Of a stretch of DNA of 64,000 nucleotides, positions 11,087 through 30,123 are shown one piece after another. The number at the start of each line of letters is the position of its first letter. Position 1 is the stretch's first letter. The DNA lies in the NCBI RefSeq assembly GCF_001583495.1, contig NZ_LQAQ01000018.1:124001-188000 (forward strand). Direction: 5' to 3'. A model generated the notes under the pieces. The model did no database searches. It was not told the DNA's origin and saw nothing but the letters and a program-made list of their open reading frames with translations. Position numbers and translations under genes: made by a program. Origin of the DNA: Flammeovirga sp. SJP92 (GTDB lineage: Bacteria > Bacteroidota > Bacteroidia > Cytophagales > Flammeovirgaceae).

Positions 11087-11087
11087 G

Positions 11088-13850: not shown

Positions 13851-14384
13851 ATGAAATTCTGTAGCAATTGCGGTAATGGAGATTTAGAATATATTATTCC
13901 AGAAGGGGATCATAAGCACCGCTATTACTGCCCAAATTGTGATACTATACATTATCAAAACCCAAGAATCATAGCGGGATGCGTTCCTATGTATGAAGGG
14001 AAAGTATTATTAGCGAAAAGAGCTATTGAACCGCGTTATGGTTTCTGGAACCTTCCTGCGGGATTTTTAGAAAACGGTGAAAGCCCTGAAGATGGTGCTT
14101 TGAGAGAACTGTTTGAGGAAACAGGTGCCAAAGGTGAAGTCAACCGCTTGCATACGGTATTTTCACTTCCTAATTTTAATCAGGTATACCTTTTATTCTT
14201 AGTGGATTTAACTTCAGAGGAATATGAAGCCTCTACTTCTGAAAGTTTGGAAGTACGCTTTTTTGAGCTGGATGAAATTCCATGGAAGGAGATCGCTTTT
14301 GAATCTTCTACATTTGCTTTAGAAAGCTACATTGCTTCACCTTCCAAGGAAAAAGTGAATCTAGGTCAATTTGTAAAATACTAA
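13851..14384 (+). CDS. Nudix hydrolase with N-terminal zinc ribbon
   Basis: The 177-aa protein begins with a zinc ribbon (C4-x2-C7 and C27-x2-C30). Then follows the Nudix box 'GFLENGESPEDGALRELFEETGA', shown here by its key residues: G...E...REL..EE.GA, near residues 72-94. Such zinc-ribbon Nudix enzymes resemble NudC-type NADH or ADP-ribose pyrophosphatases and remove nucleoside diphosphate derivatives. It is divergent from maeB and its stop codon lies 9 bases from that of the convergent PHP gene. The precise substrate is not readable. Confidence 0.85.
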   Translation: MKFCSNCGNGDLEYIIPEGDHKHRYYCPNCDTIHYQNPRIIAGCVPMYEGKVLLAKRAIEPRYGFWNLPAGFLENGESPEDGALRELFEETGAKGEVNRLHTVFSLPNFNQVYLLFLVDLTSEEYEASTSESLEVRFFELDEIPWKEIAFESSTFALESYIASPSKEKVNLGQFVKY

Positions 14385-14393
14385 CCAAGTATA

Positions 14394-15251
14394 TTAAGGC
14401 AGGTAAACGCCTTTTTCATCAAATGGGAAAGGTTGCCATTCTCCGTCCCATAGTACATGCATGGTCTTGAACCCTATTTCTTTAAGTTGTAATGCTGTCT
14501 CTGCAAAACCTTTGGTAATTTCTGCAGTAGTATGAGCATCAGAGCTTAAGGTAATAGGTATATTTTTTTCTAGTACTTTTTCTAAAATCCACGGACTAGG
14601 ATAAAGCTGTGAATAGCCTTTGTAAAAACCTCTAGTATTCACTTCTACAATAATGTTTTTGGCTTTGATAACTTCAAGGTATTTTTCAATTAATTCCTGA
14701 TACCATTCTTCGCTTTCCTCAAACCATTTTCCCGTAGAGTTGTGCATTTTCATTTTATCCAAATGCCCTAATACTGTTGGTGTATCCTCTTCAATCATTT
14801 TGATATTTAGGTCCACATATCTTTGGAAGGCCCTTTTTATACTTCCTCCAAAAATCTCCTGCAATCCTTTATCATAATGCGTTTTTGTATAGTCAATCTC
14901 CCAATAATTGCCATCTTCAAACTGATTGACATAGTGCACTGACCCCACTGAATAATCTAATTCTCTAAAATTATGCACACCACATTTTCCTTCAATATAA
15001 TCCACTTCTAAACCAGCATAAATCTGAATTTGATCCTTGTATTTTTCTTTCAGGCGTTCAATTTCAGCTAAATACTCCCTGTATTTTTCCATTTTCATAT
15101 TCCATGTAGAAGGAAAAGGAACTGGAGAATGCGTAGAGAATCCATAAGATTTCACATTCTGTTCAATAGCTGCAGTTATATAGTCTTCCAAGGGGGATTT
15201 TCCATCATCATAAAAAGTATGGCTGTGGAAATTTGTCCATGAGGGTTTCAT
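14394..15251 (-). CDS. PHP-family phosphatase, probable histidinol-phosphatase (HisJ-like)
   Basis: Metal-binding PHP motifs are clear: 'NFHSHTFYDDGKSPLEDYI' at the N-terminus, 'YAGLEVDYIEG', 'SVHYVNQF', 'VLGHLDKMKM' and the C-terminal 'ITLSSDAHTTAEI'. Together these give the trinuclear metal site of HisJ-type histidinol phosphatases. I choose the ATG at 15251 (MKPSWTNFHSH); a 13-residue longer frame opens at 15290. No other histidine genes are nearby, so the role in histidine synthesis rests on family resemblance. Length (285 aa) is normal. Confidence 0.8.
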   Translation of the reverse strand: MKPSWTNFHSHTFYDDGKSPLEDYITAAIEQNVKSYGFSTHSPVPFPSTWNMKMEKYREYLAEIERLKEKYKDQIQIYAGLEVDYIEGKCGVHNFRELDYSVGSVHYVNQFEDGNYWEIDYTKTHYDKGLQEIFGGSIKRAFQRYVDLNIKMIEEDTPTVLGHLDKMKMHNSTGKWFEESEEWYQELIEKYLEVIKAKNIIVEVNTRGFYKGYSQLYPSPWILEKVLEKNIPITLSSDAHTTAEITKGFAETALQLKEIGFKTMHVLWDGEWQPFPFDEKGVYLP

Positions 15252-15457
15252 ATTCAATGGTTTATAAATTTTGATAATAGTTTCACTCAAAATATTTCTG
15301 AAACACTTCTTAATATAATTTCCATTTGGGAATATGCCATAGTAATATCTTATTTTTTTATAGTCCTGATTGAAGATTTATTGTTAAGGTTTTTGCGTCA
15401 TCCATCCATTTTTAATACAATACAAATAACCTAATTACTAATGAATCACCTAAAGCC

Positions 15458-16024
15458 ATGAATATCTTAGTTGTATTTGCACACCCAAACTATAACCAAT
15501 CCATTATAAACAGGAGGTTTGTTGAAGAGATCAAAAAAATATGTGCTATTGATTTCCATCCACTTAATGAACTATACCCTGATGGAAAAATTGATATTCC
15601 CTTTGAGAAAAATGCATTACTAAGAGCGGATAGAGTGGTTTTTCAATTCCCTTTACATTGGTATAATGTTACTCCTATTTTAAAGAAATATGTAGAAAAT
15701 GTATTAGAACATGGTTTTGCTTATGGCTTGGATGGTGATAAACTTAAAGGGAAAGAATTTCTGACAGCAGTTACTGTTGGAGGCCCTGAAGAAGCTTACA
15801 GCAGATCAAGTGCAAATAGCTTTACCATGGATGATTTTATTAAACCTTTTGAACAGACAGCAATGTTAACAGGAATGAATTTCAGAAAAACATACGCGGT
15901 TTATAATGCGCTTACTTTAGGTAGAGAAAATAATGAATCAAAGTTAGCTCAATTAGCTAAAGAATTTATCCATCATATCACTGACCCGTACTTGGACCCC
16001 AGTATGAAACGCAATGTATCTTAG
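15458..16024 (+). CDS. Flavodoxin-like NAD(P)H oxidoreductase (KefF/NQO1 type)
   Basis: The 188-aa protein starts 'MNILVVFAHPNYNQSIINRR', the FMN/FAD phosphate loop of the Flavodoxin_2 family. It has 'ADRVVFQFPLHWYNVTPILK' and 'VTVGGPEEAYSR', typical of quinone reductases related to KefF, MdaB and NQO1. It would reduce quinones by two electrons using NAD(P)H. The stop codon TAG at 16022-16024 is made partly by an inserted inverted-repeat element: TA from the target site and G from the element's first base. The natural C-terminus may therefore have been altered by the insertion. Confidence 0.82.
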   Translation: MNILVVFAHPNYNQSIINRRFVEEIKKICAIDFHPLNELYPDGKIDIPFEKNALLRADRVVFQFPLHWYNVTPILKKYVENVLEHGFAYGLDGDKLKGKEFLTAVTVGGPEEAYSRSSANSFTMDDFIKPFEQTAMLTGMNFRKTYAVYNALTLGRENNESKLAQLAKEFIHHITDPYLDPSMKRNVS

Positions 16025-16184
16025 AGCATATTTAGAATATATATTTTAATAGTCAAAATTTTCCATTTTAGGTTATGAGGCAATTAAATTTCTGAGAAAA
16101 TAGAGAATCTATAATTGATAAAATTAATAAACTTACGTTCTGAAAGGACAAATTTTTACTAAAAGAAATGTTTCAAACATGTTC
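16024..16184. mobile_element. MITE-like element, copy A (161 bp)
   Basis: The ends form an imperfect terminal inverted repeat: left GAGCATATTTAGAATATATA, right (reverse complement) GAACATGTTTGAAACATTTC. TTA duplications flank it (16021-16023 and 16185-16187). It shares its ends and an inner block (AATTAATAAACTTACGTTCT) with copy B at 63015-63135 but has about 40 extra central bases. It encodes no protein. The 3-bp TNA-type duplication suggests mobilisation by an IS5-family transposase, which is an inference. Confidence 0.8.
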
Positions 16185-16202
16185 TTAAAGATATTAAAGT
16201 GA

Positions 16203-17111
16203 TTATAATTTCCATCGTATTCCTAATCCAATTAGGGAAGGAAAAAGGATATTGATACCCCAGATCATCAACGCTGAGACTAAAGCTGTATTGGGGTCCA
16301 AACTGAAATATTCAAAAATATACAAGGTAGATAGTTCTCTGATACCTAAATCTAAAAATCCACCAAGATTTGGAGAAATAGTCTTTATAAGGAAAATCAC
16401 TGGCACTACAAAAAAGAGAAGCTGAAAGGAGATTGATGTATCAATAGCGTGGATAACACATACAAACTGAATCGTAAACACACCGTAACGTACAAAGCCT
16501 AACGTTAAAGTGGCAATTAATAGTTTTAAGGTGTATTCTTTCAAAAGTAAAAAATACCGCTGGAGGAAGTTTATGACAATCTTATTCCGGTAAAGTTTTT
16601 TGAGGAAAAAAAAGAATATAGTACCTCCCAGAATTAAACCTCCAATAAGTAAATTTTCATGCTGCAACTGGATAATATGGTTTCTTAAAAACCACATAGT
16701 ACATGGAATTCCAATCCAAAAGGTGTGTATTCCTTGCGTCAATTGACTGACAAATAATGCTCCTATCGATTGGTTTCTGTCTACTGTTTTGGGAATAGCC
16801 CAGTACCTACCTAAAGCACTTCCTACTGTTTTGCCTGCAAGAAAAGATGCTCCTAAACCAGATAGAACACCTAATAACGCTCTCAATAAAGACACATTAA
16901 AAAGTGGTCTTAGCAATATTTGCCACCTTTTAGACTCCAACAGCCAATTCAAAGGCATTAAAAAACAGGCTAAAACAAGAAAGTACGGTGATTGAATACT
17001 TACTTTTTCCCATGGGGAATGACTATAAAACTGATAGAAAGCAAATAAAGCAAAAAGTATTGCTACACCTTTGAGACTGTGATTTAATACTTTCTGATAC
17101 TTCTCTACCAT
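16203..17111 (-). CDS. LPG-synthase-TM-type (UPF0104-like) integral membrane protein
   Basis: Start chosen at 17111 (MVEKYQKVLNHSLKG). The longer frame from 17195 lies inside the upstream transporter gene. About 302 aa with seven or eight hydrophobic segments. 'LNWLLESKRWQILLRPL' followed by 'GLGASFLAGKTVGSALGRYW' resembles the membrane domain of lysylphosphatidylglycerol synthases (PF03706), but no aminoacyl-transferase domain is attached. Stand-alone members are thought to act as lipid flippases or glycosyl-lipid handling proteins. The ATG overlaps the transporter's TAG by a few bases, so translation is coupled. Confidence 0.7.
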   Translation of the reverse strand: MVEKYQKVLNHSLKGVAILFALFAFYQFYSHSPWEKVSIQSPYFLVLACFLMPLNWLLESKRWQILLRPLFNVSLLRALLGVLSGLGASFLAGKTVGSALGRYWAIPKTVDRNQSIGALFVSQLTQGIHTFWIGIPCTMWFLRNHIIQLQHENLLIGGLILGGTIFFFFLKKLYRNKIVINFLQRYFLLLKEYTLKLLIATLTLGFVRYGVFTIQFVCVIHAIDTSISFQLLFFVVPVIFLIKTISPNLGGFLDLGIRELSTLYIFEYFSLDPNTALVSALMIWGINILFPSLIGLGIRWKL

Positions 17112-18481
17112 ATTCCCAGATACATTGGACCTAATAATAAAATTCCTGCTACTACCATTAATATAGCAAGAAGTGGTCCCATCCATTTCACCCAAACTTC
17201 ATAAGGAATCTTTGCGATGGAAAGCACCCCCATTGTCACTCCACTTGTTGGAATAATCAGGTTCGTTAGCCCATCTCCAAATTGGAAAGCCAATACGGCA
17301 ATTTGACGTGAAATTCCTAATAGATCACTCAGTGGTGCCATAATAGGCATCGTCAACGCTGCTTGTCCACTACCTGAAGGCAAGAAAGTATTTAGAAAGC
17401 TTTGGAATACAAACATGGCTTCAATTGAGGCTACTTTTGGTAATCCGTTGACTGCTGTGGCAATGCCGTGTAATACGGTATCAATAATTTTTCCATCAGA
17501 AGCAATAATCAAAATACCTTTACAAAATGCCACCACTAATGCGGCTGTCATCATTTCTTTGGCACCTTTTACAAAACCACCACTCATTTTATCCATGTTC
17601 ACTCCACAAACCAGACATGAAATCACGCCAATAGCAAAGAATAAGCCTCCAATTTCAACCATGTACCATTTATACTTTGCTACTCCAATAACCAATGTAA
17701 TTATACCTAATGCAAAAAGAAATAAAACCAGCATTCTCTGCCAGGTAAAGCTTACTTTCTCAGCACTCTTCAAATCTTCATCAGAACCTACACTTTCAGG
17801 CATTAGACTTTTGGAAGGGTCAGCTGAAATCATCAATACATAACGCATAATATAAGCAACTCCGATAGCTGTAAATACGCCCCAGATAAAAATCCTATAC
17901 TGCCACCCACTAAACAATGGCACCTCTGCAATAGCCTGTGCAATTCCAATGGTAAATGGATTACTCACTGCTCCTGCAAATCCTACTCCAGCACCTACAA
18001 ACGGAATTGCAACTCCCACAATTGGGTCTAATTTCATTGCTTTTGCCATTGGTATTGTAACCAAAATAAAGACTAGTACCTCTTCAGACATACCAAACGT
18101 AGCACCTGCAATAGAGAAAATGACTGTAATAAAAGGAATAATGATTTTTTTATATAAAGCATGCTTATTACTCCAGTTTACTAGACCTTGTAAACCTGCT
18201 TCAATGGCTCCCGTCACATTCATCATTCCAAAAGCTCCTCCCACTATAAAAATAAACGCAATGATTTCTGAAGCAGAAATAAATCCTTTTAGAGGTGCCG
18301 TGAAAAATGAAGCAATACCTTGAGGAGAAGCCGCTACTTTTTGATAAGATCCGGGCACTAAAATATTTCTACCATTAAGCAGCTCTCTACTATACTCTCC
18401 TGCTGGTATAAGCCATGTTAGACCAATAAAAATTAATAGGATAACAGAGGCAATGACTAATGTATCTGGAAGTTTTTTCAT
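17105..18481 (-). CDS. YfcC-family / C4-dicarboxylate anaerobic carrier-like transporter
   Basis: The 458-aa inner-membrane protein has about 12 hydrophobic segments. It shows the family sequence 'PDTLVIASVILLIFIGLTWL', 'IPAGEYSR', 'VGGAFGMMNVTGAIEAG', 'GATFGMSEEVLVFILVTIPM' and 'FLNTFLPSGSGQAALTMPIM'. It fits YfcC/DcuC-like carriers (PF03606), which move dicarboxylates, amino acids or arginine-type compounds. The downstream membrane gene overlaps it, so the pair forms an operon. The substrate is not predictable from sequence alone. Confidence 0.8.
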   Translation of the reverse strand: MKKLPDTLVIASVILLIFIGLTWLIPAGEYSRELLNGRNILVPGSYQKVAASPQGIASFFTAPLKGFISASEIIAFIFIVGGAFGMMNVTGAIEAGLQGLVNWSNKHALYKKIIIPFITVIFSIAGATFGMSEEVLVFILVTIPMAKAMKLDPIVGVAIPFVGAGVGFAGAVSNPFTIGIAQAIAEVPLFSGWQYRIFIWGVFTAIGVAYIMRYVLMISADPSKSLMPESVGSDEDLKSAEKVSFTWQRMLVLFLFALGIITLVIGVAKYKWYMVEIGGLFFAIGVISCLVCGVNMDKMSGGFVKGAKEMMTAALVVAFCKGILIIASDGKIIDTVLHGIATAVNGLPKVASIEAMFVFQSFLNTFLPSGSGQAALTMPIMAPLSDLLGISRQIAVLAFQFGDGLTNLIIPTSGVTMGVLSIAKIPYEVWVKWMGPLLAILMVVAGILLLGPMYLGIW

Positions 18482-18618
18482 TAGGAATAGGTTTCAAGTC
18501 GATAAGAATACAAACTTATCGAACACAGAGTAAACAAACTAAAAAAAATCACTTTTATTAATGCGTAACATTGACTATTTTTCAAGAATAAATAAAAATT
18601 ACAATTACATATTTTAAA

Positions 18619-21189
18619 ATGAAAATTAAAGAATTAGATGAAATTTTTGACGATTATGAAAGTTACAAAGCATTAGGAGAAGATAGTTATATAATTGGTG
18701 CTCAGCACCCTCAGAATTTTAAGCAGCATAAAAAATTTATAATTCCTTTATTTTATTTCGATGGTGAAGATTGGTTTAAATTAGATATCAATAAATTAGG
18801 TGAATCCATATTTCTGGCAAGTGCACCCTATACATTAACAACTGATTTTAAGTTAGAGGAATTAATAAAAGTTAAAGGCGTACGTCCTAATAAACAGCTC
18901 ACGGATGACGATGAGCACAATAAGGAACACTCTTTAACGAAGCATATCACACATGCAGACCGCTTAAGCGTACTTTCTGAAGATCAATTATTAGAAATTT
19001 TCCCTGGTGAGATTGACTTTGAATTACATCTGTTTCATCCAGACAAACATTATTATGACATCATCAACGAGGTGTATGTCGCTCAGGAACGTAAATTTTT
19101 CGTAGAATCTAAAGATGGATTAATTTACGGTCCTTTTGTAGGTGTTAAAACGAGTACTGAAGCCAAAGCAATACGCTTATCAGCTACAGGTGTTCGTAAA
19201 AGTGTAGAAGCTTATAACCTACCATCAGAAGCTTTTCTGGAATTCAATATGCCGGAGGAAGGACTAAAACGTAAGTTAGTCCGAAGCACGCATGATATTG
19301 AATACTACATTGAAGATACCGTTGACTTTATCAGCCGACAAGATTTATTCAAATGGGCTGAAGAGCAATTGAATAAAAAGCAATCGTTAGAAGTAGCCGA
19401 TAAAGTTTGGAAAGCAATCTCAAAAGATAATGCCATTCACTCTTTTCAAGAACGTTATCAACGTTTGGAGAAGCTTTTCCAAAAACCGCAGGAGAACCTG
19501 CAGTATCTTCAACAATTCGTTACTTCTTTAGCTGAAAATGACTTTTTTAAAGCCAGTCTTGATTCTCTCCAAAATGAAAAATTGGAATTAGACAATGCTG
19601 TTGCTCAACAAAAAAGGGAACGAGATCTTGTAAGAAGAGAAACGGGGCGTTTGCAGGAAGAAATGCAAGACCTTGAAGAAGGCATTAATAATTTGAAAGC
19701 CAATGAGCAGAAAATTAGAGAGAGTCTTCAGAAGGAGAGAGAGTTCGCCATCAACAAAGAAATTGAAGAAGGCTTATCCAAATTGGAAAAAGTACGTGAA
19801 GAACTTTCTGACCGTGCTGAAGCGATTGAATTGGCCCACAATTTCGACAACCTTGCACGTATCAATGAAGAAATTGATAATGCCAAGGAGATCAAACATA
19901 ATTTAGAAATCTCAATTTCAGCCTTAAAAGAAGAGTTTGTAAAAGCTCAAGAAGATGCCGATACAGCGCTGAAGAATTTATTGAAAACCAAAATGCAATT
20001 GGACGTTTTCAGTAATGGTTCTGCCAATTCAAAGAAGAACACTCCAGCAATTGAAGTATTGGACATCAAGGACTATAGAATTGAGAAACCAACTGCGATT
20101 ACGACACTAAAGGAGTTATCGCAAAAGCTTCATAAGCGATTGGGACGTTTGGGAAGAAGTTATCCAGACCACTTCATTGCCAACTTACTGATCTCCATGC
20201 ATCAAAACTCTTTAACGTTGCTTTGGGGCCCTCCAGGTTCTGGTAAAACGTCATTGGGTCGATACATGATCCAATCACTTACAAAAGCAGATCGTTACTC
20301 GGAGATTTCTGTCGCTAGAGGTTGGTCTTCACAAAAAGACATCATTGGTTTTGCCAATCCACTTTCAAAACGTTTTCAGAGAGCAAATACCGATTTGTAT
20401 GACCTCTTAAAGCAGTTGGACGGAGAATTCAATAATTCTACTTACTTACAATCTCCAATGTCTTATTGTCTATTGGATGAAGCGAATCTTAGCCCTATTG
20501 AACATTATTGGGCTTCATTCTATTCGCTGACGGACTCTAAAGCACAATTAGACAAGGGTTTAAAGATTTCATTGGGTAATAATGAATCGATTGAGTATGC
20601 CAATAACTTACGTTTCTTAGGCACATTGAATTTAGATTCTACAACGGAGCAAATCTCTCCACGATTATTGGACCGTTGTCATATCATTAGATTGGATCTT
20701 CCAAGAAGTAATATGCCTTTGATCGGGTCCGAAATTATAATGCCTGAACCTTTTGAAATTCCATTTGACAACATTCGTTCATTGTTTGAGTTAAAAGATT
20801 TCAAACAAGAATTAGCTCCTGATCAATTAGAATTTATTGATACAGAACTAGAGGAACGTTTCGAGCAAATTGCTTCAGAATTAAGAAATTTAGGTATTCA
20901 GATTAGTTTACGTACTCGAAAAGCAGTCATTGAATACTGTAATTTGGCTCACTCTGCGATGAATGAGCAATTCAGACCATTGGATTATTGCTTAGCTCAA
21001 AGAGTATTCACAAGAATTAATCTTCAAGGTGCTGAATCGAGAGAAGGTATTAAGGCTTTATTAGAAATTGTAAAGAGCTTTGCTTTAAAAGATTCACACG
21101 CTGAATGGACCTTACAGAAAATGTTGGAAAGAGGCGGTAAAGAAGGCTTCAACCATCACTTCTACAATTATTTCTCAATAGATGGATAA
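18619..21189 (+). CDS. McrB-like AAA+ NTPase with long coiled coil (CoCoNuT-like defence)
   Basis: 856 aa. Residues 1-290 are an unrecognised globular region that may be the sensor. About 310-470 is a heptad-rich coiled coil (e.g. 'RETGRLQEEMQDLEEGINNL'). About 500-750 is an AAA+ domain: Walker A G537PPGSGKT544, Walker B 'YCLLDEANLS' with D620 and E621, and 'GTLNLDSTTEQISPRLLDRC' around residues 668-687. The DEANLSPIEHYW and TTE..SPRL..R signature is that of McrB relatives paired with DUF2357 proteins. The classical McrB NxxD guanine motif is absent (N-L-D-S here). It is followed after two bases by the nuclease gene. By analogy with McrBC it would be a nucleotide-driven translocase that activates its partner against foreign nucleic acid. 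Confidence 0.8.
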   Translation: MKIKELDEIFDDYESYKALGEDSYIIGAQHPQNFKQHKKFIIPLFYFDGEDWFKLDINKLGESIFLASAPYTLTTDFKLEELIKVKGVRPNKQLTDDDEHNKEHSLTKHITHADRLSVLSEDQLLEIFPGEIDFELHLFHPDKHYYDIINEVYVAQERKFFVESKDGLIYGPFVGVKTSTEAKAIRLSATGVRKSVEAYNLPSEAFLEFNMPEEGLKRKLVRSTHDIEYYIEDTVDFISRQDLFKWAEEQLNKKQSLEVADKVWKAISKDNAIHSFQERYQRLEKLFQKPQENLQYLQQFVTSLAENDFFKASLDSLQNEKLELDNAVAQQKRERDLVRRETGRLQEEMQDLEEGINNLKANEQKIRESLQKEREFAINKEIEEGLSKLEKVREELSDRAEAIELAHNFDNLARINEEIDNAKEIKHNLEISISALKEEFVKAQEDADTALKNLLKTKMQLDVFSNGSANSKKNTPAIEVLDIKDYRIEKPTAITTLKELSQKLHKRLGRLGRSYPDHFIANLLISMHQNSLTLLWGPPGSGKTSLGRYMIQSLTKADRYSEISVARGWSSQKDIIGFANPLSKRFQRANTDLYDLLKQLDGEFNNSTYLQSPMSYCLLDEANLSPIEHYWASFYSLTDSKAQLDKGLKISLGNNESIEYANNLRFLGTLNLDSTTEQISPRLLDRCHIIRLDLPRSNMPLIGSEIIMPEPFEIPFDNIRSLFELKDFKQELAPDQLEFIDTELEERFEQIASELRNLGIQISLRTRKAVIEYCNLAHSAMNEQFRPLDYCLAQRVFTRINLQGAESREGIKALLEIVKSFALKDSHAEWTLQKMLERGGKEGFNHHFYNYFSIDG

Positions 21190-21191
21190 AT

Positions 21192-22892
21192 ATGGAGTTC
21201 AAAATTTTTCATATTCGAAAAGATAGTGCTCCACCTTACAATACAGAAAGAGAAGAGGTGCTCCCAATCGACGGTTTCCACGTCGTTTTGGAGCATCATT
21301 TCTATGAACTAGAATTTCATTATTTCGAACTGCCTGTCAGTACAGATGTTTTTATTGATGAAATTGAGGTCGATAAATCCCTTATCACCAACGACGAGCA
21401 AATCGGCATCGTCAAAGTAGGGTTAGGGCAACATTTCTCCAACCAATTAGGACATGCTACAGTAAAGATAGATCAAGATTCTTTTCAAGTTCGAGTAGAT
21501 GCTTCTAAATTGAGTAGTGAGGACGCAGAAGGCATGATTACTTACCTTTATCGTAAGAATAAATCATTGATCCTCCAGCTTTTCACAAAAGAAGAAGTAG
21601 GTGGAGAAAAGAACAATTCCACTATTAGTATGACTAGACTTTCTCCTTTGGAGAAGTTTATCAACGAGATGGAAAACATTCTGCCAGCCTTAGCACATAG
21701 CCCAAGATACAGTACTATTCAAGACCGTGAAATCCAAGATTTTGCTACCGCAAATATTGATGAGCAAAGTATTGATTGGCTGTTAGAACATCTTGATGAA
21801 TTGTATTTTGATGATTCATTAAAAGATCATCCTGACGCTATTGAGATTGATGGGCAATATACTGTTATAGACAGAATTGATGCTCCAGTAATTAAAATGG
21901 AGTATGCAACTTATGAAAATGAGTGCATTCTAGGAGGTTTCTATTGGGCGCGAAAACTTGTCGATGACCTCATTAGTCATATTGAAAGAATCAATGGGCA
22001 GAAAAGCCTTATTCAGAATGAAGGAAGCGGATACGCCACTTTTGAATCGGCTCAAGTGATCATTAATGCTCAGGCCATTGAGGACGCACAAGACATTAGA
22101 ACGAGGTTGTACAGACTGGAAAGGAAATACATGCAACTTTTCCCCAATACAACACCTAATGTTCACCCTCCCCTTTTGACCAAGCGTTTTAGTTCAGTGA
22201 ATGTCTATTCCAATATCTTCTTGAATCTACTTCAAGTTTATAATCTTAAGTTAGATACTCAAAACGATACGGGAGCCGTTAAAACTTCCTTTCTGGATCA
22301 AATTTACGAGCTGTATACTTATTATCAGTTGTATGATGCGTTATTGGAATGCTTCAAGGATTTTAATTATAAACTGGAAATAAGCGACACTGAGGAAGGC
22401 GAATTTATCCCTAAGCGTGTTTCCATACAGCCTATCAATGGTAAATGGCAAATGAACTTGCTCTATCAACCACAAATTGGTAGAGAACCGGGAGATACAC
22501 ACTTGGTATTGCATGGGAAACCACATCGAGATAGCTTCTACTATACGCCTGACTTTGTATTGGAATACTGCGATCCTCACCTATCATTGCGATATGGTAT
22601 TTTGGATGCCAAATACAAGATGGCTAAAACGGTACTGGAACAAGATCTTAAGGAATCCTCTTTCAAATATTATACTTGTGTAAGGGTAATTGGAGAAAAA
22701 AGGGACCATCAGAAACCAGATTTCTTATGGCTGATTTGTCCTAATGCATGCTATGGTCGTCCTGTATGGACCATGAATTATGATGATAATTTCTTACCGA
22801 TTATCGGTATAGTAATGAATAATGCAGAGAGCAATGATCCAATCAAGCAAAGTATCAAGAAGATGATGCGAGAGTGGAATGTAGGAATTTAA
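21192..22892 (+). CDS. DUF2357/McrC-like protein with PD-(D/E)xK nuclease domain
   Basis: 566 aa. The N-terminal and middle parts look like the DUF2357/McrC N-domain (e.g. 'LARKL...' replaced here by 'GFYWARKLVDDLISHIERIN'). The C-terminus carries a PD-(D/E)xK nuclease core: 'YYTPDFVLEYCD' with P453-D454, then 'RYGILDAKYKMAK' with D472-x-K474, then 'KYYTCVRVIGEKRD'. All three catalytic positions are present. It is separated by two bases from the AAA+ gene, so the two are expected to form one complex, as McrB and McrC do. A perfect 19-bp terminator follows. No methylase or helicase gene accompanies the pair. Confidence 0.8.
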   Translation: MEFKIFHIRKDSAPPYNTEREEVLPIDGFHVVLEHHFYELEFHYFELPVSTDVFIDEIEVDKSLITNDEQIGIVKVGLGQHFSNQLGHATVKIDQDSFQVRVDASKLSSEDAEGMITYLYRKNKSLILQLFTKEEVGGEKNNSTISMTRLSPLEKFINEMENILPALAHSPRYSTIQDREIQDFATANIDEQSIDWLLEHLDELYFDDSLKDHPDAIEIDGQYTVIDRIDAPVIKMEYATYENECILGGFYWARKLVDDLISHIERINGQKSLIQNEGSGYATFESAQVIINAQAIEDAQDIRTRLYRLERKYMQLFPNTTPNVHPPLLTKRFSSVNVYSNIFLNLLQVYNLKLDTQNDTGAVKTSFLDQIYELYTYYQLYDALLECFKDFNYKLEISDTEEGEFIPKRVSIQPINGKWQMNLLYQPQIGREPGDTHLVLHGKPHRDSFYYTPDFVLEYCDPHLSLRYGILDAKYKMAKTVLEQDLKESSFKYYTCVRVIGEKRDHQKPDFLWLICPNACYGRPVWTMNYDDNFLPIIGIVMNNAESNDPIKQSIKKMMREWNVGI

Positions 22893-22916
22893 TTTCAAAA
22901 CAATTGTTCTTCAAAC

Positions 22917-22960
22917 ATAATTAAGGGTTAGACTACCATTTTAGTCTAACCCTTAATTAT
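22917..22960 (+). terminator. Terminator of the McrBC-like operon
   Basis: A perfect 19-bp stem (arms 22917-22935 and 22942-22960) with a 6-base loop; each arm contains AAGGGTTAGACTA or its complement. A short T-rich stretch follows. It closes the two-gene unit. Confidence 0.8.
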
Positions 22961-22988
22961 TTCATACTTTGTTATAAGTAGTACTTTT

Positions 22989-23062
22989 CGTTAACTTTCA
23001 ATCAGTCTTTCTACAAGTATTGATAGGATCTACTTTCAAAGTTTCTTCATCTTCATTTTTTC
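22989..23062. repeat. Imperfect direct repeat, copy 1, downstream of the DUF6377 gene
   Basis: About 73 bases share roughly 80% identity with 24909-24982 in the same orientation. Shared blocks are ACTTTCAA, TTCTACA, TAGGA followed by CTACTTTCAAA, and CTTCATTTTT. The two copies flank the regulator gene. Confidence 0.6.
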
Positions 23063-23108
23063 CTAAAATCACAAATAAAAAGCCTGATATAGAGTGTAAT
23101 TATTTTCA

Positions 23109-24794
23109 TTAGATCGATGAGATATTCATCAACTGCTCTTCAAAGTCTTTTACATCAGATGGAATTTTTGCTTTGATACGATTTCTGTAAGCGTAAATCG
23201 TATTTTTTGTCAGACCTAATATATTGGCTACCCTGTCAGTATCTGAGATGCCTAAACGCATCAGTGCAAAAACACGAAGTTCTGGCGTTAATTTCTTCTC
23301 TTTAGTAGAACCAAAGCCACCTTTATCATTGGTTATTTTCTCAAGGTCTTTGATAAAAGTGGGGTACAAATCCAGAAACAGTTCATCGAAATTTTGATAA
23401 AAAAGGTCTCTTTGTTTCTTCGGTTTAAAAGCCTTAATAAGATCATCAATTTTAGTATATTTCTTTTGAACTAATAAACTACCTACCGTATAATGGAAGT
23501 AATCTAGCTGTTCAAAAAACTGGGCACTGATTTCAAAAAACCGCTTGACATACATCTCCCTTAAACTATTGGCATTTTGAAGCTGAACATTGATTTCTTC
23601 TAACTGTTCATTCTTCTTATTCAATAGCTTTTGGTTTTCTTTAATCTGCTGATTATTTGTCTCTAGCTCCAAGTTCTGTTTTTTCATCAACTTCTGAGAG
23701 CTTTGAATCTGACGGTTTCTTTTATTTAATCTTACTGTTTGTAAGAAAAGTGATGAAATGAAAATGGAGAGAATCACGATCAGACTAAACCATATCATTT
23801 CTTTTTTCTGATGTAAATTTTCGATTTGTGCTTCAATAATGGGAAGAAAGCTATTGATTTGTGAAATACGCTGACGGGCACCATATTGTCGTGCATTTCT
23901 CAATGCCATTTGCATAAAGTGATCTGCCAATTCTAATTCTTTCCTATCAAAAAATAAAACCGCTAAGGCCTGATCTGATATTGCTTCATAAGTACATGAG
24001 CGGATATCATAAATAGCACTTTGCTGTAGCTCTAATATTCTTGCTTCATTGTCTTCCAACAACCAAGATTTACTAGCGTGGGTCATGGCTAATTCATGCA
24101 AAGTCACTTTATCTTCATGGATAATTCGATCGTAGATGGCAATTGCACTGTCTAATTTTCCTCTCCGTGCAAAGTTCGACGCTTTGGTGAATAAATAGGT
24201 AAACGAGTCTTCATCGGCATATTTCAAAACCGAATCTCCATAAATCATCCCCTGTTCATAGTACTTCCAATAATATTCCTCGTATTCATTATACTCCGCT
24301 ACATCAAAACTTAAACGATTTTTTAATGTGTAATACTTCACAATATATTCTCGTTTAATTAGTGTGTGAGGAGCAATATTTTTCAAAATTTTCTCCGTCT
24401 CAAGAAATATTCCCAGAGAAATTAAAACTTCAGCCTTGCTAAGTTGTGCCTCCAATTTTAATTGAGGATCATCCTGTTGATTGGCCGTTTCTATTAAGAC
24501 ATTGGCTTGTGCCAAAGCTTCTTCCCCTTTATAAGAAATAAGCAATTCTAAAATTTGTCCTTGAGTTTGAAAAGCACGCTGATACTGTTTTGTCTCTAAA
24601 AAATTATCCGCTTTTTCTCTTAATCGTTTGAGTTGATCATCTCTTTGCTGATCATAGATATATCGACGTTCTTGCTCTTTTTCTAATTCCTCTAGTTTCT
24701 TCTCAATCTTAGGTGTGATGCTTCCCCACACCTTTGAAAAAGGATTCATCAATAAAAAATAGAACATTAGAGAAAGTAAATAAAAATGCTTCAT
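23109..24794 (-). CDS. Membrane-anchored TPR regulator, DUF6377 type
   Basis: 561 aa. A signal or anchor segment (LLSLMFYFLLMNPFSKVWG) is followed by helical TPR-like repeats to about residue 325, a membrane segment (IWFSLIVILSIFISSLFLQ, about 335-355), and a coiled coil (about 360-410). The C-terminal helix-turn-helix, 'MRLGISDTDRVANILGLTKN' near residues 515-535, is followed by TIYAYRNRIKAKI. This layout matches DUF6377 regulators that sit beside SusC/SusD loci in Bacteroidota and sense sugars in the periplasm. It should control the adjacent GH97-SusC-SusD genes. A -7 box lies at 24850-24843. Confidence 0.8.
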   Translation of the reverse strand: MKHFYLLSLMFYFLLMNPFSKVWGSITPKIEKKLEELEKEQERRYIYDQQRDDQLKRLREKADNFLETKQYQRAFQTQGQILELLISYKGEEALAQANVLIETANQQDDPQLKLEAQLSKAEVLISLGIFLETEKILKNIAPHTLIKREYIVKYYTLKNRLSFDVAEYNEYEEYYWKYYEQGMIYGDSVLKYADEDSFTYLFTKASNFARRGKLDSAIAIYDRIIHEDKVTLHELAMTHASKSWLLEDNEARILELQQSAIYDIRSCTYEAISDQALAVLFFDRKELELADHFMQMALRNARQYGARQRISQINSFLPIIEAQIENLHQKKEMIWFSLIVILSIFISSLFLQTVRLNKRNRQIQSSQKLMKKQNLELETNNQQIKENQKLLNKKNEQLEEINVQLQNANSLREMYVKRFFEISAQFFEQLDYFHYTVGSLLVQKKYTKIDDLIKAFKPKKQRDLFYQNFDELFLDLYPTFIKDLEKITNDKGGFGSTKEKKLTPELRVFALMRLGISDTDRVANILGLTKNTIYAYRNRIKAKIPSDVKDFEEQLMNISSI

Positions 24795-24842
24795 CGATTG
24801 ATCGGATTCATTTACAACATATAGCTTTTATAAGCACTAATA

Positions 24843-24850
24843 CAAAGATA
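24843..24850 (-). promoter_or_regulatory. Bacteroidota -7 box for the DUF6377 regulator
   Basis: The minus strand reads TATCTTTG, matching TAnnTTTG, about 49 bases upstream of the ATG at 24794. Confidence 0.5.
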
Positions 24851-24908
24851 GCTTGTTTCTGAAGACAATAAATATTTCCATTTAAATACACTGTAAACTA
24901 AGCTTTCG

Positions 24909-24982
24909 TTTACTTTCAAACGGTCATTCTACATGATTTTATAGGAACTACTTTCAAACTTCCTTCTTCTTCATTTTTGTCT
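24909..24982. repeat. Imperfect direct repeat, copy 2, upstream of the DUF6377 gene
   Basis: This is the counterpart of 22989-23062. It lies upstream of the regulator promoter box, between regulator and SusD. It could be a regulator binding site or part of a dispersed repeat. Confidence 0.6.
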
Positions 24983-25291
24983 TAACACAAAAACGAAGAA
25001 AAAAAGTCAAGGCTTTGAAGTCAAAAGCTAAATTCCATTCCTCTCGCCTAAATGATTTTAAACTCGCTAAAGCTCAAACAAAAAAATCATTTTTAACGGC
25101 TCAATACATGAAATTCTTAACGCTTTTCCCTCCAAGGCCGGGGTAGAACTACCAAACTAAAAAAGAAGTAATTCCACTGGCTCGAATATTTAGTGCAAGC
25201 ATCGTTCGTGTCCTATAAATCATCAGAAAGATTCGAATTTCTAATCGAAAACGTAGTTTAAAGGATAAAAAATAATTTTAAAAAAAAGGCG

Positions 25292-25318
25292 ATACAGTTG
25301 GCAAATTGCCAACTGTAT
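25292..25318 (-). terminator. Terminator of the GH97-SusC-SusD operon
   Basis: ATACAGTTGGCAA pairs exactly with TTGCCAACTGTAT around a single central base. The minus strand continues through CGCC into a long T-tract. It lies about 70 bases past the SusD stop codon. Confidence 0.75.
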
Positions 25319-25388
25319 TACTTGCCTATTGTCAACGTTACTGTTTTATTTAAAAATCGTCAGCTGTATTATTTTTGAGGAATAAATA

Positions 25389-27128
25389 CTAATAACCATC
25401 TTTCTGTGATAAACTTGGGTTTGTTGACAAAACTCTTAGTGGGTAAGGATATACACTATATTTATTTTCAGAAGTTTCTTTATCCCACCAGCTACTTTCT
25501 GTAAACTTTCCGAAACGGATCAAGTCTGTTCTCCTTCTTTTTTCTGCTAGGAATTCCATACCCCAAACTTTTAACATATCTCCCATATCCATGGTTTGAT
25601 ACCCATGAAGAGTAGCATTAAAAGTTTCGAAGTTTCGCTCCAATACTGTGTTTACTAAATTGGCAGCTTCACTTCCATTTCCAGTTCTAATATGGCATTC
25701 CGCTAACATAAAGTAAGCTTCCGCAATTCTCATTTCTGGGTAATCTGCATTCATATAACCTTCTGTAAATGTAGCTGGATAAATAGGACGTTTTACTAAT
25801 CTGTAACCTGAGTTTTCCTCTCCCAAATCAGTAGCACTTTCACTTAAACCTTCTGAAGCTCTACATACAAAGTCCACAAATACTAATGGAGATCCATTAT
25901 ATTCATTAGAAGCCATTGAAGTATTTCCTGTAATTGGAGACTGCTGTAATCCCATCAAAAACATTCCTTGAATTTGCTGGTAATCTTTACTGCCAATTGC
26001 CCCCTCAAAATCAAAACCTCTTTTTCTTAAATCATCAGCATGATAATTTTCAAAAGGCGTTCCCAATCCTTTTTCAAAAGAAAGATTAGCTAAACTACTT
26101 GGATCATAATCTGCAGTTGGATCAAAATCTCCATCATAATCAGTACCTGAAACAGGAGCTACTTTTGAAGGCTGTAAGCCTAAACCGTTGGCGGGTGTCC
26201 CTAATGAACCAAAATAAGCCGGCGAGTCATAATGATATAATCTCCAATAACTTTGAGCATCCCCTGTATTTTCAAAAGTTTTAGGGAAACCAAAAACAAT
26301 TTCACGACTGTTTGTTGCATTATCAAAAGCAAAAGGAGCATAAAAAGTATCATCTAATTCAAAAGAACCGTACATCCCATTGATCAAATTTTGGGAAGTC
26401 TCCGCACAACGATCATACATTGCATTTCCTGTCCATGTTTCAGCATTTAAATAATACCTCGCCAATAACATCGCCGCCGCCGCTCTGTTCAATCGACCTC
26501 TTGTCTCTGCATAAGTTCCAACAGGCATACTATCAATATTATCTTCTACTTCATTCAAAGCCCAAGTAAACACTTCTACTCTTGGTGATTCATCTGGAAT
26601 CGTTCCTTCAACAGATGTACTGATTGGCACATCTCCCCATAAACTGATAATATGGAAATAGAAAAGAGCACGTAAGATTTTCATTTCTGCAATATGTGCT
26701 TGACGATCTTCTTCCGTCAAACCATCTCCAATTTCCTCATAATCCAACATTTCAAGATCTTTGATCATGTTGTTACAATGCGATACTCCTGCAAATAAAC
26801 TGTTCCAACCTGCATAGAGCTCAGGCTCATCAGCCGTCCACTCATGACGGTGATAACGTAAAAAACGTCCTTGATCAAACCAATGTGATCCTTTTGCTGC
26901 AATAACTAGGTGATCAGCCGAAAGCTCTTCTAATAAAAGTAATGTTTCATCTGAACTAAACGCCCAAGAGGCGTGCTCATAAACCCTCAACAAAGCCGCT
27001 TTTACTTGTGTTTTATTTTCATAATAATCTTCAGGTCGTACTTGACTGAATGGTTCTTCGGTTAGATCTGTACACGAAGAAAAGAATGTTAAGGTGGCTA
27101 AAAATAATAATATATAAGATGTTTTCAT
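25389..27128 (-). CDS. SusD/RagB-family glycan-binding lipoprotein (locus 1)
   Basis: The 579-aa protein has a lipoprotein signal peptide (MKTSYILLFLATLTFFSSC, Cys19). SusD family features follow: 'VRPEDYYENKTQVKAALLRV' near the N-terminus, 'LRALFYFHIISLWGDVPIST' in the TPR core, 'YPEMRIAEAYFMLAECHIRT' and 'FLAEKRRRTDLIRFGKFTES' near the C-terminus. It caps the SusC channel at the cell surface and hands over oligosaccharide. The SusC gene lies 10 bases upstream. With GH97 in the operon, an alpha-glucan is the likely ligand. Confidence 0.93.
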   Translation of the reverse strand: MKTSYILLFLATLTFFSSCTDLTEEPFSQVRPEDYYENKTQVKAALLRVYEHASWAFSSDETLLLLEELSADHLVIAAKGSHWFDQGRFLRYHRHEWTADEPELYAGWNSLFAGVSHCNNMIKDLEMLDYEEIGDGLTEEDRQAHIAEMKILRALFYFHIISLWGDVPISTSVEGTIPDESPRVEVFTWALNEVEDNIDSMPVGTYAETRGRLNRAAAAMLLARYYLNAETWTGNAMYDRCAETSQNLINGMYGSFELDDTFYAPFAFDNATNSREIVFGFPKTFENTGDAQSYWRLYHYDSPAYFGSLGTPANGLGLQPSKVAPVSGTDYDGDFDPTADYDPSSLANLSFEKGLGTPFENYHADDLRKRGFDFEGAIGSKDYQQIQGMFLMGLQQSPITGNTSMASNEYNGSPLVFVDFVCRASEGLSESATDLGEENSGYRLVKRPIYPATFTEGYMNADYPEMRIAEAYFMLAECHIRTGNGSEAANLVNTVLERNFETFNATLHGYQTMDMGDMLKVWGMEFLAEKRRRTDLIRFGKFTESSWWDKETSENKYSVYPYPLRVLSTNPSLSQKDGY

Positions 27129-27138
27129 GGTCCGTATT

Positions 27139-30123
27139 TTATAAGGTCATATTAAGCATTAGTGAATAAGTAGCAGTACGCGGATAGAAACTATTTCCAT
27201 CTATACCTGGTGTTAATCCTGAATTCCAAACCTCTGGATCAAGTCCTGTATAGTTTGTAATTGTCAAGATATTTTGAGCAGATGCACTTATTCTCAACCT
27301 TTTAATTGGAGATGATTCTTGTAATGGGAAATTGTAACCTAGACTGATGTTGTCCAGTTTTAAGTAATCTCCTTTTTCGAGGTAATAATCAGAATAGAAA
27401 ACGACATCATTAATATGCTCATGGGTAGTTAATGCGGTCTCCAATTGATTAAAACCATTGAGATTGGCTTTATTGGCATAGAACATTTCTTTTTGATTTA
27501 GAATATCAAAACCTAATTCTCCTCTAAAAAAGAAACTAAAGTCCCATTGCTTATAACTGAAATTACTTCCAAAACCTAGGTTAGTAGTTGGCAATCCATT
27601 ACCAATATATTGTCTATCTTCAGTGGTAGGGTCTGTGGTTAACTCTCCATCTTGAGTAAAAAATAACCATTCTCCTTCAGGAGTAAATCCTGCATTTCTA
27701 TATCCATAAAATGATCCTACTCTTCTTCCTTCCTCTAACCTCATCGCATCGTTGAGGAATGCTGTTGAACCACTTAACCCATACAAATCTATGTACCCTG
27801 CCTGATAATACTCATTCGATAATTTAGTCAATTCATTATCCAGGAAACTAATATTAAAGTAAGCATTCCATTTGAAATTCTTTTTACGAACCACTTCAGC
27901 ATTTAAGCCTAATTCAATACCCGAATTGCTCATTGAACCTACGTTCGTGAAAATAGTAGGGTGAATATTTGGAGGAGTTGGGGCATCATAAGTAAATAAC
28001 AAATCATCTGTAATTCGTTTATATACATCCAAAGTTCCGCTTAATCTTTCATCAAAAAGTGTAAAGTCCAAACCAACGTTCCATTCCGACTTACGTTCCC
28101 AACCAAGATTAGGGTTAGTATTTTGCCCAGGGCCATAACCTGTAATCCATTTTCCTGTTTCCACATCATAATAGCGTCCAAAAGAGCTCATAGTGGTAAT
28201 TGAACGATAGTTACCAAAATCCTGATTACCTGTTACTCCATAACCTGCTCTAATTTTCAGCTCATCTATCATATCAATATCTTTCAAGAAATTCTCTTGT
28301 GAAATTCTCCAACCCGCTGAAACTGCTGGGAACAAACCCCACTTATTATCATCTCCAAAACGAGTTGATCCTTCATAACGAGCACTCACTGATAATAGGT
28401 ATTTGTTGTCAAAAGCATAATTTGCTCGTCCAAAGAAACCAATCAAACGGCTACTTTCTCTAAAACTCCCCATACCTGCACGACCTTCTTTTAAAAGGTT
28501 TCCACTTCCAATATCCCACCACTTGGTATGGTCAAAAACAAAATCGCCGTTACTCACTGAAATATTTTCATAAGAAAAATCTTGATAACTATAACCGCCT
28601 AATACATCAAAGTTGTGTTTGTTATTGGTAAGCAATTTGTATTTCAAGGTGAGATCTAACGTACGGTTTTGACTGAAATGATCTGTTCTGCTCGCTCTAC
28701 CTGCTACTTGATCACTGATCGATTGTCTTGCATCAGAATCGAGATACTCATTGTACTTTTTAATGTCTCTGGTTACGGCACCAAAAACGGAAGCTTCTAA
28801 CCCTTCAAAGAATTCATAGCTCACACGTCCACTTGCTAAAAGGTAAGACTGTTGCTCTGTTTTTTCTAATTGATTCTGCTTTGCCACTGGATTAAAATGT
28901 CCGTATGCTCCAATTGGATCATAGTATTTTGTTGGATCATCAGGGTCCATTACTGGAAAAGTAGGGTTACGTACAATGGATTGTTCAAAGATATCATTAT
29001 CCATAAAGCGAGCGTCAACTACAGTATTTTGCAAGTCAGCTTGAATTTTCAGTCTGTTATTCAACGCTTTATGATTAATACTCACTTTTCCGCCATATTC
29101 TTGCCTTCCTGTATTCTCTACAATAGGTGTTGCATCTCTAAGAAAGCCTGAAGCTCTATAACTAAACTGGTTATTTCCACCTGATAAAGATAAATTATGA
29201 TATTGTGTAACAGGTGTTTGAATCAATTCATCAAACCATTTTGTATCGTAACCTAAATCAGGACTAGAAGTAATTGTTCCATCTTCAATTAATGCTCTAA
29301 ATTGAGATGCCGAAATCGCTTCTGGACGATTTGTAATGTATTCAGATTGTACACTTCCTGTATAAGAAAGTTCTGAATAACCTTCTTTATTTTGAGCTCT
29401 TTTGGTAGTGATCAAAATCACACCGTTTGTTCCTCTTGTACCATAAATAGCAGCAGCTGAACCATCTTTTAATACTTCAATCGATTCAATTTCATCTTGA
29501 GATAATAATTTCATATCAGCCCCTGGCACTCCATCAATAATAACCAAAGGTGCCGTTCCTGCACTTACGGATGAAACCCCTCTAAGTTGGATCGAAGCAG
29601 ATGAGTTGGGATCGTTACCATTTCCCCTACTAATTGATAATCCTGGAACTTTACCCTGTATTAATTGTGCAGCAGAAGTCACTACGCCTTGCTGGAAATC
29701 TTCCTGTTTAACAGACGCTACAGAAGAGGTAATATCTTCTTTTCTCATGGTTCCATATCCCACAACGACAACCTCCGAAAGTTGCTCTAACGATTGTTGC
29801 ATTTGAATCGTCAATGGTTTATTTCCTACAATTTGAATGACTTGTGCTTTATAACCGATAAAAGAAACAATAATGTTTTCCCCTTCCTCAATGAGCAGTT
29901 CGAACCCTCCATTGAAACCTGTAATTGTTCCAACAGATGTTCCTTCAATCTTGACGTTCACACCAGGAAGAGGAGTCCCAGTCTCATCCAAAACTGTCCC
30001 CTCCACTTTTATCTTATCTTGAGAAGAGGAATTATCTAATGTGCTTTGGGCTAAAGTGCTATTCCATCCAATAGAAAGTACTAACCAAAGCAATGTGAAT
30101 AGTTGGTATTTTTTGTAATTCAT
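27139..30123 (-). CDS. SusC/RagA-family TonB-dependent outer-membrane transporter (locus 1)
   Basis: 994 aa. After a signal peptide comes the CarboxypepD_reg-like domain ('VEGTVLDETGTPLPGVNVKI', about 38-115). Then the plug ('SEVVVVGYGTMRKEDITSSV', 'PLVIIDGVPGADMKLLSQDE', 'IYGTRGTNGVILITTKR') and a long beta barrel ending 'FYPRTATYSLMLNMTL'. It imports oligosaccharides into the periplasm using TonB energy. It sits between the starch-binding lipoprotein (38 bases upstream) and SusD (10 bases downstream). Confidence 0.94.
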   Translation of the reverse strand: MNYKKYQLFTLLWLVLSIGWNSTLAQSTLDNSSSQDKIKVEGTVLDETGTPLPGVNVKIEGTSVGTITGFNGGFELLIEEGENIIVSFIGYKAQVIQIVGNKPLTIQMQQSLEQLSEVVVVGYGTMRKEDITSSVASVKQEDFQQGVVTSAAQLIQGKVPGLSISRGNGNDPNSSASIQLRGVSSVSAGTAPLVIIDGVPGADMKLLSQDEIESIEVLKDGSAAAIYGTRGTNGVILITTKRAQNKEGYSELSYTGSVQSEYITNRPEAISASQFRALIEDGTITSSPDLGYDTKWFDELIQTPVTQYHNLSLSGGNNQFSYRASGFLRDATPIVENTGRQEYGGKVSINHKALNNRLKIQADLQNTVVDARFMDNDIFEQSIVRNPTFPVMDPDDPTKYYDPIGAYGHFNPVAKQNQLEKTEQQSYLLASGRVSYEFFEGLEASVFGAVTRDIKKYNEYLDSDARQSISDQVAGRASRTDHFSQNRTLDLTLKYKLLTNNKHNFDVLGGYSYQDFSYENISVSNGDFVFDHTKWWDIGSGNLLKEGRAGMGSFRESSRLIGFFGRANYAFDNKYLLSVSARYEGSTRFGDDNKWGLFPAVSAGWRISQENFLKDIDMIDELKIRAGYGVTGNQDFGNYRSITTMSSFGRYYDVETGKWITGYGPGQNTNPNLGWERKSEWNVGLDFTLFDERLSGTLDVYKRITDDLLFTYDAPTPPNIHPTIFTNVGSMSNSGIELGLNAEVVRKKNFKWNAYFNISFLDNELTKLSNEYYQAGYIDLYGLSGSTAFLNDAMRLEEGRRVGSFYGYRNAGFTPEGEWLFFTQDGELTTDPTTEDRQYIGNGLPTTNLGFGSNFSYKQWDFSFFFRGELGFDILNQKEMFYANKANLNGFNQLETALTTHEHINDVVFYSDYYLEKGDYLKLDNISLGYNFPLQESSPIKRLRISASAQNILTITNYTGLDPEVWNSGLTPGIDGNSFYPRTATYSLMLNMTL

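Follow-up and report, generated by a model that had tools for sequence, protein, structure and literature searches.

A 64,000-nucleotide window of the genome of Flammeovirga sp. SJP92 (contig NZ_LQAQ01000018.1, positions 124,001 to 188,000) carries two adjacent genes that encode a coiled-coil AAA+ NTPase (P0001, hereafter the motor) and a McrC-like protein with the residues of a PD-(D/E)xK nuclease (P0002, the partner). The two genes probably constitute one operon encoding a complete McrBC-type machine, of the branch of McrB proteins in which the NxxD motif is shortened to NxD. The pair is thus of a known kind, in a branch that has already been described, and the surprising part is its fixed, household-like evolution: it is a resident, strongly preserved chromosomal part of the genus and not a come-and-go defense gene. 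The explanation we favor, with moderate confidence, is that of an intact restriction-type nuclease, driven by nucleoside triphosphate (NTP) and resident in the genus, which provides a constant layer of restriction against foreign or abnormal nucleic acid.

The gene pair and its relation to McrB and McrC

Only 2 bp separate the stop codon of the motor gene (TAA) from the start codon of the partner gene (ATG). In an alignment of nine ATPases, the Walker A (K543), Walker B (D620, E621), N671-L-D673, and R682/R686 residues of the motor are invariant. P0001 scores 22.7 bits against Pfam AAA_5 (cut-off 22) and matches the PADLOC candidate model PDC-M26A with an E-value of 1.2e-27, whilst a profile made from the AAA domain alone of the motor family finds E. 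coli McrB with an E-value of 3e-5, over a span that runs from Walker A to the NxD motif. When aligned with E. coli McrB, the N-L-D of the motor falls opposite NTAD, no insert is seen between Walker B and the NxD motif, and D685-R686 occupies the position of the RRR stretch of McrB, as in the other seven NxD-type rows of the alignment. The AAA part of an AlphaFold model of the motor superimposes on McrB (6ut6_D) with a Z-score of 15.3 over 178 residues at 3.0 Å.

In the partner, E373, D454, D472, and K474 are invariant among the eight proteins of one alignment and the five of another. Agreement of this kind in motor and partner does not arise by chance. The A. indicus partner, which was excluded from the eight-protein alignment, retains the PD and D-x-K columns in an alignment of 15 pairs. 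The YEN motif (residues 241–243) is likewise invariant in the eight-protein alignment, as are E242 and N243 in the five-protein alignment. P0002 itself has no match in Pfam, NCBIfam, PADLOC, or PHROGs at E-values up to 1; Pfam DUF2357 is matched by another member of its family (one of eight, E 1.3e-6), and of four plasmid homologues examined, two carry a DUF2357 annotation. The top three structural matches of the partner model (VIA-align) are all E. coli McrC chains (7vsr_M, 6hz4_M, and 6ut6_G, Z 10.4–9.8), aligned from residue 105 onward with a root-mean-square deviation of 10–12 Å over two domains of what is a weak model; an archaeal McrC gives a Z-score of 9.3. The Foldseek E-values for the partner are not significant, the best (0.32) being an Ig-like match to its N-terminal beta region, where the low-confidence model predicts seven strands in residues 1–106. 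The LDAKY strand, which includes D472-A-K474-Y, aligns to VDAKY of E. coli McrC (hhalign P 0.0039, probability 8.7%, against a single McrC sequence). Based on the McrC-best model of the partner, the VDAKY alignment, the DUF2357 annotations of its homologues, and the N-x-D motif, we read the pair as McrB plus McrC, a reading drawn from sequence comparison and predicted structures.

Some results pull against that assignment. In the search with the AAA-only profile, Midasin (2e-9, over repeated domains) and a Pch2 (1.1e-5) outrank McrB. In structural comparisons, RavA (Z 15.7), a MoxR-type ATPase (15.2), and dynein domains (14.7) tie with McrB, and BsoBI (Z 9.4, 5.1 Å) ties with McrC for the partner. 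Moreover, the AlphaFold models, which were run with five sequences each for motor and partner, are weak, with a mean predicted local distance difference test score (pLDDT) of 48 and 56, respectively. Because of the ties, the fold of the motor is not enough to identify it as McrB; it is the N-x-D motif and the partner that make the distinction.

Between its N-terminus and the AAA+ domain, the motor carries a coiled coil, seen in a model of modest confidence as helices at residues 308–399 and 407–461 (~154 residues) and accompanied by weak matches to SMC-type entries in the domain libraries. In residues 1–290, no match to a Pfam, NCBIfam, or PHROGs domain rises above noise. When 11 N-termini of the family were compared with Pfam, nothing scored better than an E-value of 0.1, and the best match of the N-terminal module to sequences in the Protein Data Bank was 0.46. 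Within the module, P141, G171, and F173 are invariant, and P172 is nearly so, in the alignment of 11 sequences. Residues 1–317 of the motor model lie below a pLDDT of 50, and the model of the N-terminal module is unusable.

A sequence-only reading of this locus had proposed the spacing of the two genes, an AAA+ domain with intact Walker motifs, a coiled coil of about 160 residues joined to it, an N-terminal part of 290 residues without a recognizable domain, and a partner with D454 and D472-x-K474 in place, and had put these together as a McrBC-like NTPase with a DUF2357/PD-(D/E)xK partner in a two-gene build like that of the coiled-coil nuclease tandem (CoCoNuT) systems; all of this is borne out by the results above. 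Its view of N-L-D as an unusual replacement, perhaps with different nucleotide use, needs correction. Bell et al. (2024; PMC11090510) report that shortening of NxxD to NxD marks a large branch of McrB proteins that contains the CoCoNuTs. N-L-D is therefore the published NxD motif, and use of another nucleotide is not implied by the motif itself.

The features of the locus are compiled in Table 1. A perfect 19-bp inverted repeat (22917–22935 and 22942–22960) lies 3′ of the operon. It had been described as a terminator; the hairpin is real, but the sequence directly after it is TTCATACTTT, which is not a T run, and consequently the terminator function is only likely. Upstream of the pair, a 74-bp block of the spacer is kept in all nine genomes of the genus and holds an invariant run of 28 nucleotides. 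It is probably a divergent promoter region, a reading that leans on the Bacteroidota promoter consensus.

Table 1. Coordinates of the gene pair and associated features in the window
Feature	Position	Strand	Evidence
Conserved intergenic block between divergent DcuC-type transporter gene and the pair	18510–18583		Alignment of nine congeners
McrB-like coiled-coil AAA+ NTPase (CnuB-like), 856 aa	18619–21189	+	AAA_5, AAA-only profile, PDC-M26A
N-terminal module, residues 1–240, GPF motif at 171–173	18619–19338	+	11-sequence alignment
Coiled coil, residues ~308–461	19540–20001	+	Two long model helices; weak SMC-type matches
Walker A GPPGSGKT, residues 537–544	20227–20250	+	Sequence; nine-ATPase alignment
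Walker B LLDEAN, residues 618–623	20470–20487	+	Sequence; nine-ATPase alignment
NxD motif N-L-D, residues 671–673 (shortened McrB NxxD)	20629–20637	+	Aligned to NTAD of E. coli McrB
McrC-like DUF2357/PD-(D/E)xK protein (CnuC-like), 566 aa	21192–22892	+	Structural matches of weak model
N-terminal seven-strand beta region, residues 1–106 (Ig-like beta-sandwich suspected)	21192–21509	+	Low-confidence model
YEN motif, residues 241–243, start of long helix (DUF2357 stalk region suspected)	21912–21920	+	Alignments
PD-(D/E)xK nuclease domain, residues 365–520, with E373, D454, D472, K474	22284–22751	+	Invariant residues
Perfect 19-bp hairpin after the operon	22917–22960		Inverted repeat

Distribution and selection

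The pair is found at one syntenic locus in all nine genomes of the genus that were compared. The same DcuC-type transporter gene adjoins it in each of them, and the same Lrp/AsnC gene lies on the other flank, directly in six genomes and after one extra gene in G006; in the genome of the window and in G005, an inserted block separates the pair from the Lrp/AsnC gene. In the window this block (23109–33048) encodes a DUF6377 protein and, as judged by eye, SusC/SusD-like proteins. G005 has part of it, and the other seven congeners lack its genes, G003 keeping short similar stretches.

All nine copies of the pair are open, with no internal stop. G006 and G008 share 84% identity in the motor and 78% in the partner, ranking the two proteins at the 76th and 63rd percentile, respectively, among 71 orthologues of a single 200-kb region. 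Relative to G004, the motor has a ratio of nonsynonymous to synonymous substitutions (dN/dS) of 0.013 and the partner one of 0.022, at a dS that is near saturation (0.83 and 1.22); only 8% and 20%, respectively, of 50 nearby orthologues from that one region have lower ratios, 16 of the 66 orthologues having been dropped due to a dS of ≤0.15 or an undefined value. Conservation extends to the putative sensor (residues 1–240), which is approximately as conserved as the AAA core and 87–93% identical to its counterparts in G006 and G008; within the motor, the coiled coil varies most. In the partner, conservation peaks in the C-terminal tail and the nuclease domain (the latter 84–100% identical to G004, G006, and G008).

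Two other markers of defense in the genus are patchy, as is the family of the pair elsewhere, while the pair itself is fixed. Cas1 is present in five of the nine congeners, and strong matches to HSDR_N (HsdR; ≥130 bits) occur in five, although matches above the cut-off occur in eight, which weakens the contrast. Another McrB-like AAA match was found in three of the nine. Within the genus of Alteromonas oceani, one of 59 genomes (that of A. oceani itself) has a close match to the pair family; two further genomes have weaker relatives (1.6e-44 and 9.5e-30), comparable at best with the Bacteroidota relatives that match in the AAA region only. Closer to the window, the pair was found in two of nine other genomes of the same bacterial family and not in the remaining seven, and none of 40 other genomes of the same order matched it.

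Wider searches recovered pairs of the same build on plasmids of A. baumannii, A. indicus, Citrobacter, and K. pneumoniae, in Alteromonas oceani, and in one proteobacterial and one Clostridia metagenome-assembled genome (MAG). A tree of 29 AAA domains unites all of these with the kin of the window in a group of 16 rows (support 99/100), and the eight rows from the bacterial family of the window cluster together (support 100/99). The root of this tree is unsure: the branch leading to E. coli McrB is very long, and row L016, with 43% of its columns filled, was cut at the wrong motif. All nine ATPases of the motor alignment match PDC-M26A (best 5.3e-31), the match on P0001 (residues 343–641) taking in the coiled coil together with the first part of the AAA domain.

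A pattern scan of genomes with a generic Walker motif gave at least 12 loci, three of which (L056, L057, and L058) are full pairs and the other nine short stretches. Among 395 Bacteroidota genomes, full-length relatives were found in one, the window's own, and the other 11 that pass an E-value of 1e-30 match the AAA region only. Six of 274 Gammaproteobacteria pass the same threshold, and G446, together with a short frame of G565, falls in the 16-row group. In these large surveys, scoring was limited to the top two or three candidates of each genome, and their negatives are therefore soft. No phage record matches the pair, and among the matches listed in the viral scans the sole contig agrees in its length and gene with the A. 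baumannii plasmid. Klebsiella plasmids carry a relative of the pair (L045, 7614–11941, in the plasmid inspected), and 24 of the 35 plasmid records that match at an E-value of 1e-15 come from Klebsiella.

The alleles of the pair are mosaic. In steps of 500 bp, the DNA of the window is 94–99% identical to G003 and G005 at 19.0–22.9 kb, as opposed to 79–84% at 17.0–18.4 kb, and it is 99% identical to G004 only at ~18.5–19.0 kb, with 83–88% over the rest of the pair. Despite the diverged DNA, the motor protein is 98.5% identical to that of G004. Across 11000–24900, stretches of ~97%, 99%, and 80% identity to congeners lie side by side, a pattern suggestive of homologous exchange among congeneric species. 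Since other nearby stretches are also mosaic, this exchange is not special to the pair.

Gene neighborhoods and the choice between defense and a household role

In the window, the pair is surrounded by genes for a PHP protein, a flavodoxin-fold protein, an LPG-synthase-like membrane protein, the DcuC transporter, and the DUF6377 protein. No methylase, helicase, or TerY-like gene lies beside the pair in the window, as the sequence-only reading had said, and no HEPN or second nuclease gene was recognized beside it. The congeners have mostly the identical set of neighbors. A new PADLOC scan covered four unshared congener genes, four genes of G010/G012, one of A. indicus, and one shared-class gene of G012, and the neighbors on plasmids were judged by annotation. 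The four unshared congener genes are without a PADLOC match. The extra gene beside the pair in G006, which by eye encodes a secreted repeat protein, has no such match. The scanned neighbors in G010 are a DUF349 gene, a DEAD-type helicase, a UvrD-type helicase, and one gene without a match. The UvrD-type helicase, 3.3 kb from the partner gene, has matches to GajB models, with E-values as low as 4.6e-121, as well as to an RTasHel model (1e-128). The DEAD-type helicase adjoining it matches many PADLOC models weakly; both are probably generic helicases. G012 has a TrmD-like methyltransferase, one gene with a marginal match to PDC-M08B (6.8e-5), and three genes without a match.

Outside the bacterial family, three of the seven loci inspected have clear defense neighbors: an MvaI/BcnI restriction–modification system on the A. 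baumannii plasmid, an AbiC-type protein in Alteromonas, and a gene for a DpdE-like SNF2 helicase in the proteobacterial MAG (L056, pair at 5438–9607), located 37 bp downstream on the same strand. The last arrangement is possibly a three-gene variant of the pair. The loci without a clear defense neighbor are those of Klebsiella (integrase and insertion sequence), Citrobacter (mobile-element genes), Clostridia (TelA/TerD), and A. indicus, where one neighbor has a marginal match to PtuA (4.4e-5). Elsewhere in the window, two adjacent open reading frames (51512–52561 and 52662–53711) are of equal length (349 aa), and the first has a match to MORN-type repeats.

The earlier designation of the pair as a defense module therefore survives in part. 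It suits some of the relatives outside the bacterial family, with defense genes at three of seven loci, and it does not suit the genus, where the pair sits among metabolic genes at one locus. Similarly, homologues in household contexts, which the sequence-only reading had named as the observation that would speak against it, are what we found inside the genus and are not the consistent picture outside the bacterial family.

We nevertheless lean toward defense as the more likely role of the pair. In the constant restriction layer that we favor, the motor, more likely a GTPase, would form a hexameric AAA+ ring; the N-terminal module and the coiled coil would sense or grip the nucleic-acid target; the DUF2357 stalk of the partner would enter the ring and trigger NTP hydrolysis via the N-x-D motif; and the PD-(D/E)xK domain would cut DNA (or RNA) after the motor moves or stalls. 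Speaking against this explanation are the lack of any recognized defense gene beside the pair in the window or in the mapped congeners, as well as the genus-wide fixation and strong purifying selection, sensor included, which are unlike those of an arms-race gene. These same facts are the substance of a rival view, in which an intact McrBC-type pair has been recruited to a core task, such as the processing of damaged or stalled DNA or RNA, or the control of chromosomes or division, and no longer serves mainly in phage defense. The single locus with its fixed transporter and Lrp/AsnC flanks, the nine stop-free copies, the low dN/dS and high identity percentiles, the conserved spacer block, and the patchiness of Cas1, strong HSDR_N, and other McrB-like AAA matches in the same genus, and of the family in that of A. 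oceani, all argue for it. There is also a precedent in PcdA of S. aureus, a McrB-family protein reported to have been recruited to division (PMC10602043). However, PcdA is described there as having degraded motifs and no McrC partner, whereas both active sites of our pair are intact; few parts of the partner are as well conserved as its nuclease domain; the family is accessory elsewhere, partly beside defense genes; and the pair was not found in most other genomes of the bacterial family. On balance, we regard recruitment to a household task as the less likely reading.

An alternative that overlaps with the restriction layer, such that the two are not exclusive, is abortive infection by RNA targeting: the pair would sense translation-related RNA, the nuclease would degrade RNA, and the cell would die or stall. 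The build of the pair fits that of the NxD systems with two genes and a coiled coil, which Bell et al. predict to target RNA (PMC11090510). Yet the targeting is itself a prediction, the CSD and YTH domains behind it are undetected by sequence in residues 1–240, and no companion HEPN or second nuclease gene was recognized; we regard this alternative as tentative. Far less probable is that the pair is a mobile accessory operon that arrived recently in the genus and was spread by recombination. The mosaic alleles, with their high identity to G003 and G005 over the pair and the drop just upstream, would suit such an origin, but the locus is the same in all nine genomes, the dS to G004 is high, the window lacks tRNA genes, the mapped neighbors include no integrase, and other stretches of the region are also mosaic. 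The boldest reading, which we offer as a speculative possibility, is an intact McrBC-type machine that belongs to the core equipment of the genus, is fixed at one locus, is held under household-level purifying selection that includes a sensor of unrecognized fold, and performs a constitutive task on the cell's own or on incoming nucleic acid.

Comparison with known systems

The pair resembles EcoKMcrBC, the Type IV restriction system of E. coli K-12, in having two adjacent genes with the AAA+ motor first, a partner with a DUF2357-like region and a PD-(D/E)xK nuclease, an alignable D-A-K-Y strand, and predicted structures that match McrB and McrC. It differs from McrBC in its NxD motif and in D685-R686; in its long coiled coil and the lack of an ADAM/DUF3578 reader recognizable by Pfam; and in ~105 additional beta-rich residues that precede the McrC-like part of the partner.

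Compared by description with the NxD coiled-coil branch, and with CoCoNuT Type I-C in particular, the pair shares the NxD motif, a coiled coil fused to the motor, two genes, a partner with an intact PD-DxK site, and a predicted N-terminal beta region. Judged by the published definitions, the fused coiled coil, the two genes, and the absence of an insert between Walker B and NxD in the sequence would fit Type I-C or an unlisted neighbor of it. For the same reasons Types I-A and I-B do not fit: the helical insert of Type I-A is absent from the motor when aligned with E. coli McrB, and in place of the CnuA coiled-coil gene that is usually separate in Type I-B the coiled coil is on the motor itself. 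Nor does the pair fit the Type IV CoCoNuTs with inactive CnuB that are described in PMC12458937. The CSD-like OB fold and, often, YTH-like domain expected at the CnuB N-terminus in Type I were found by sequence (Pfam) in none of the 11 N-termini and residues 1–317 are not modeled, and therefore we assign no CoCoNuT subtype. In Type I, CnuC is also expected to begin with an Ig-like beta-sandwich; the partner has seven predicted strands there, with Ig-like matches that are not significant. Unlike the systems of that branch, moreover, the pair is chromosomal, fixed in the genus, and without companion defense genes; patchiness combined with defense neighbors, the usual though not defining hallmark of an anti-phage system, is not seen in this genus. 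With the PADLOC candidate PDC-M26 the likeness is confined to the ATPases, all nine of which match PDC-M26A, as none of the eight nuclease partners matches any PADLOC model at an E-value of 0.01. Among the papers listed in a literature search (15 of 1,566), the name of this candidate does not occur, and we found no test of it.

Bell et al. state that by 2024 no McrB GTPase with an NxD motif had yet been characterized (PMC11090510). A pair that is nearly unchanged across a genus is a good candidate for biochemistry. In being a McrB-family protein kept by a lineage outside a restriction role, PcdA of Staphylococcus aureus is a parallel to a household function. PcdA is reported to have no nuclease partner and degraded NTPase motifs, whereas both are intact in the pair (PMC10602043). 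An intact pair in a household role would therefore be a new situation. In contrast to the decayed S. aureus protein, the pair offers an opportunity, provided by nature, to ask whether restriction machines that keep both active sites can take on permanent roles in the cell.

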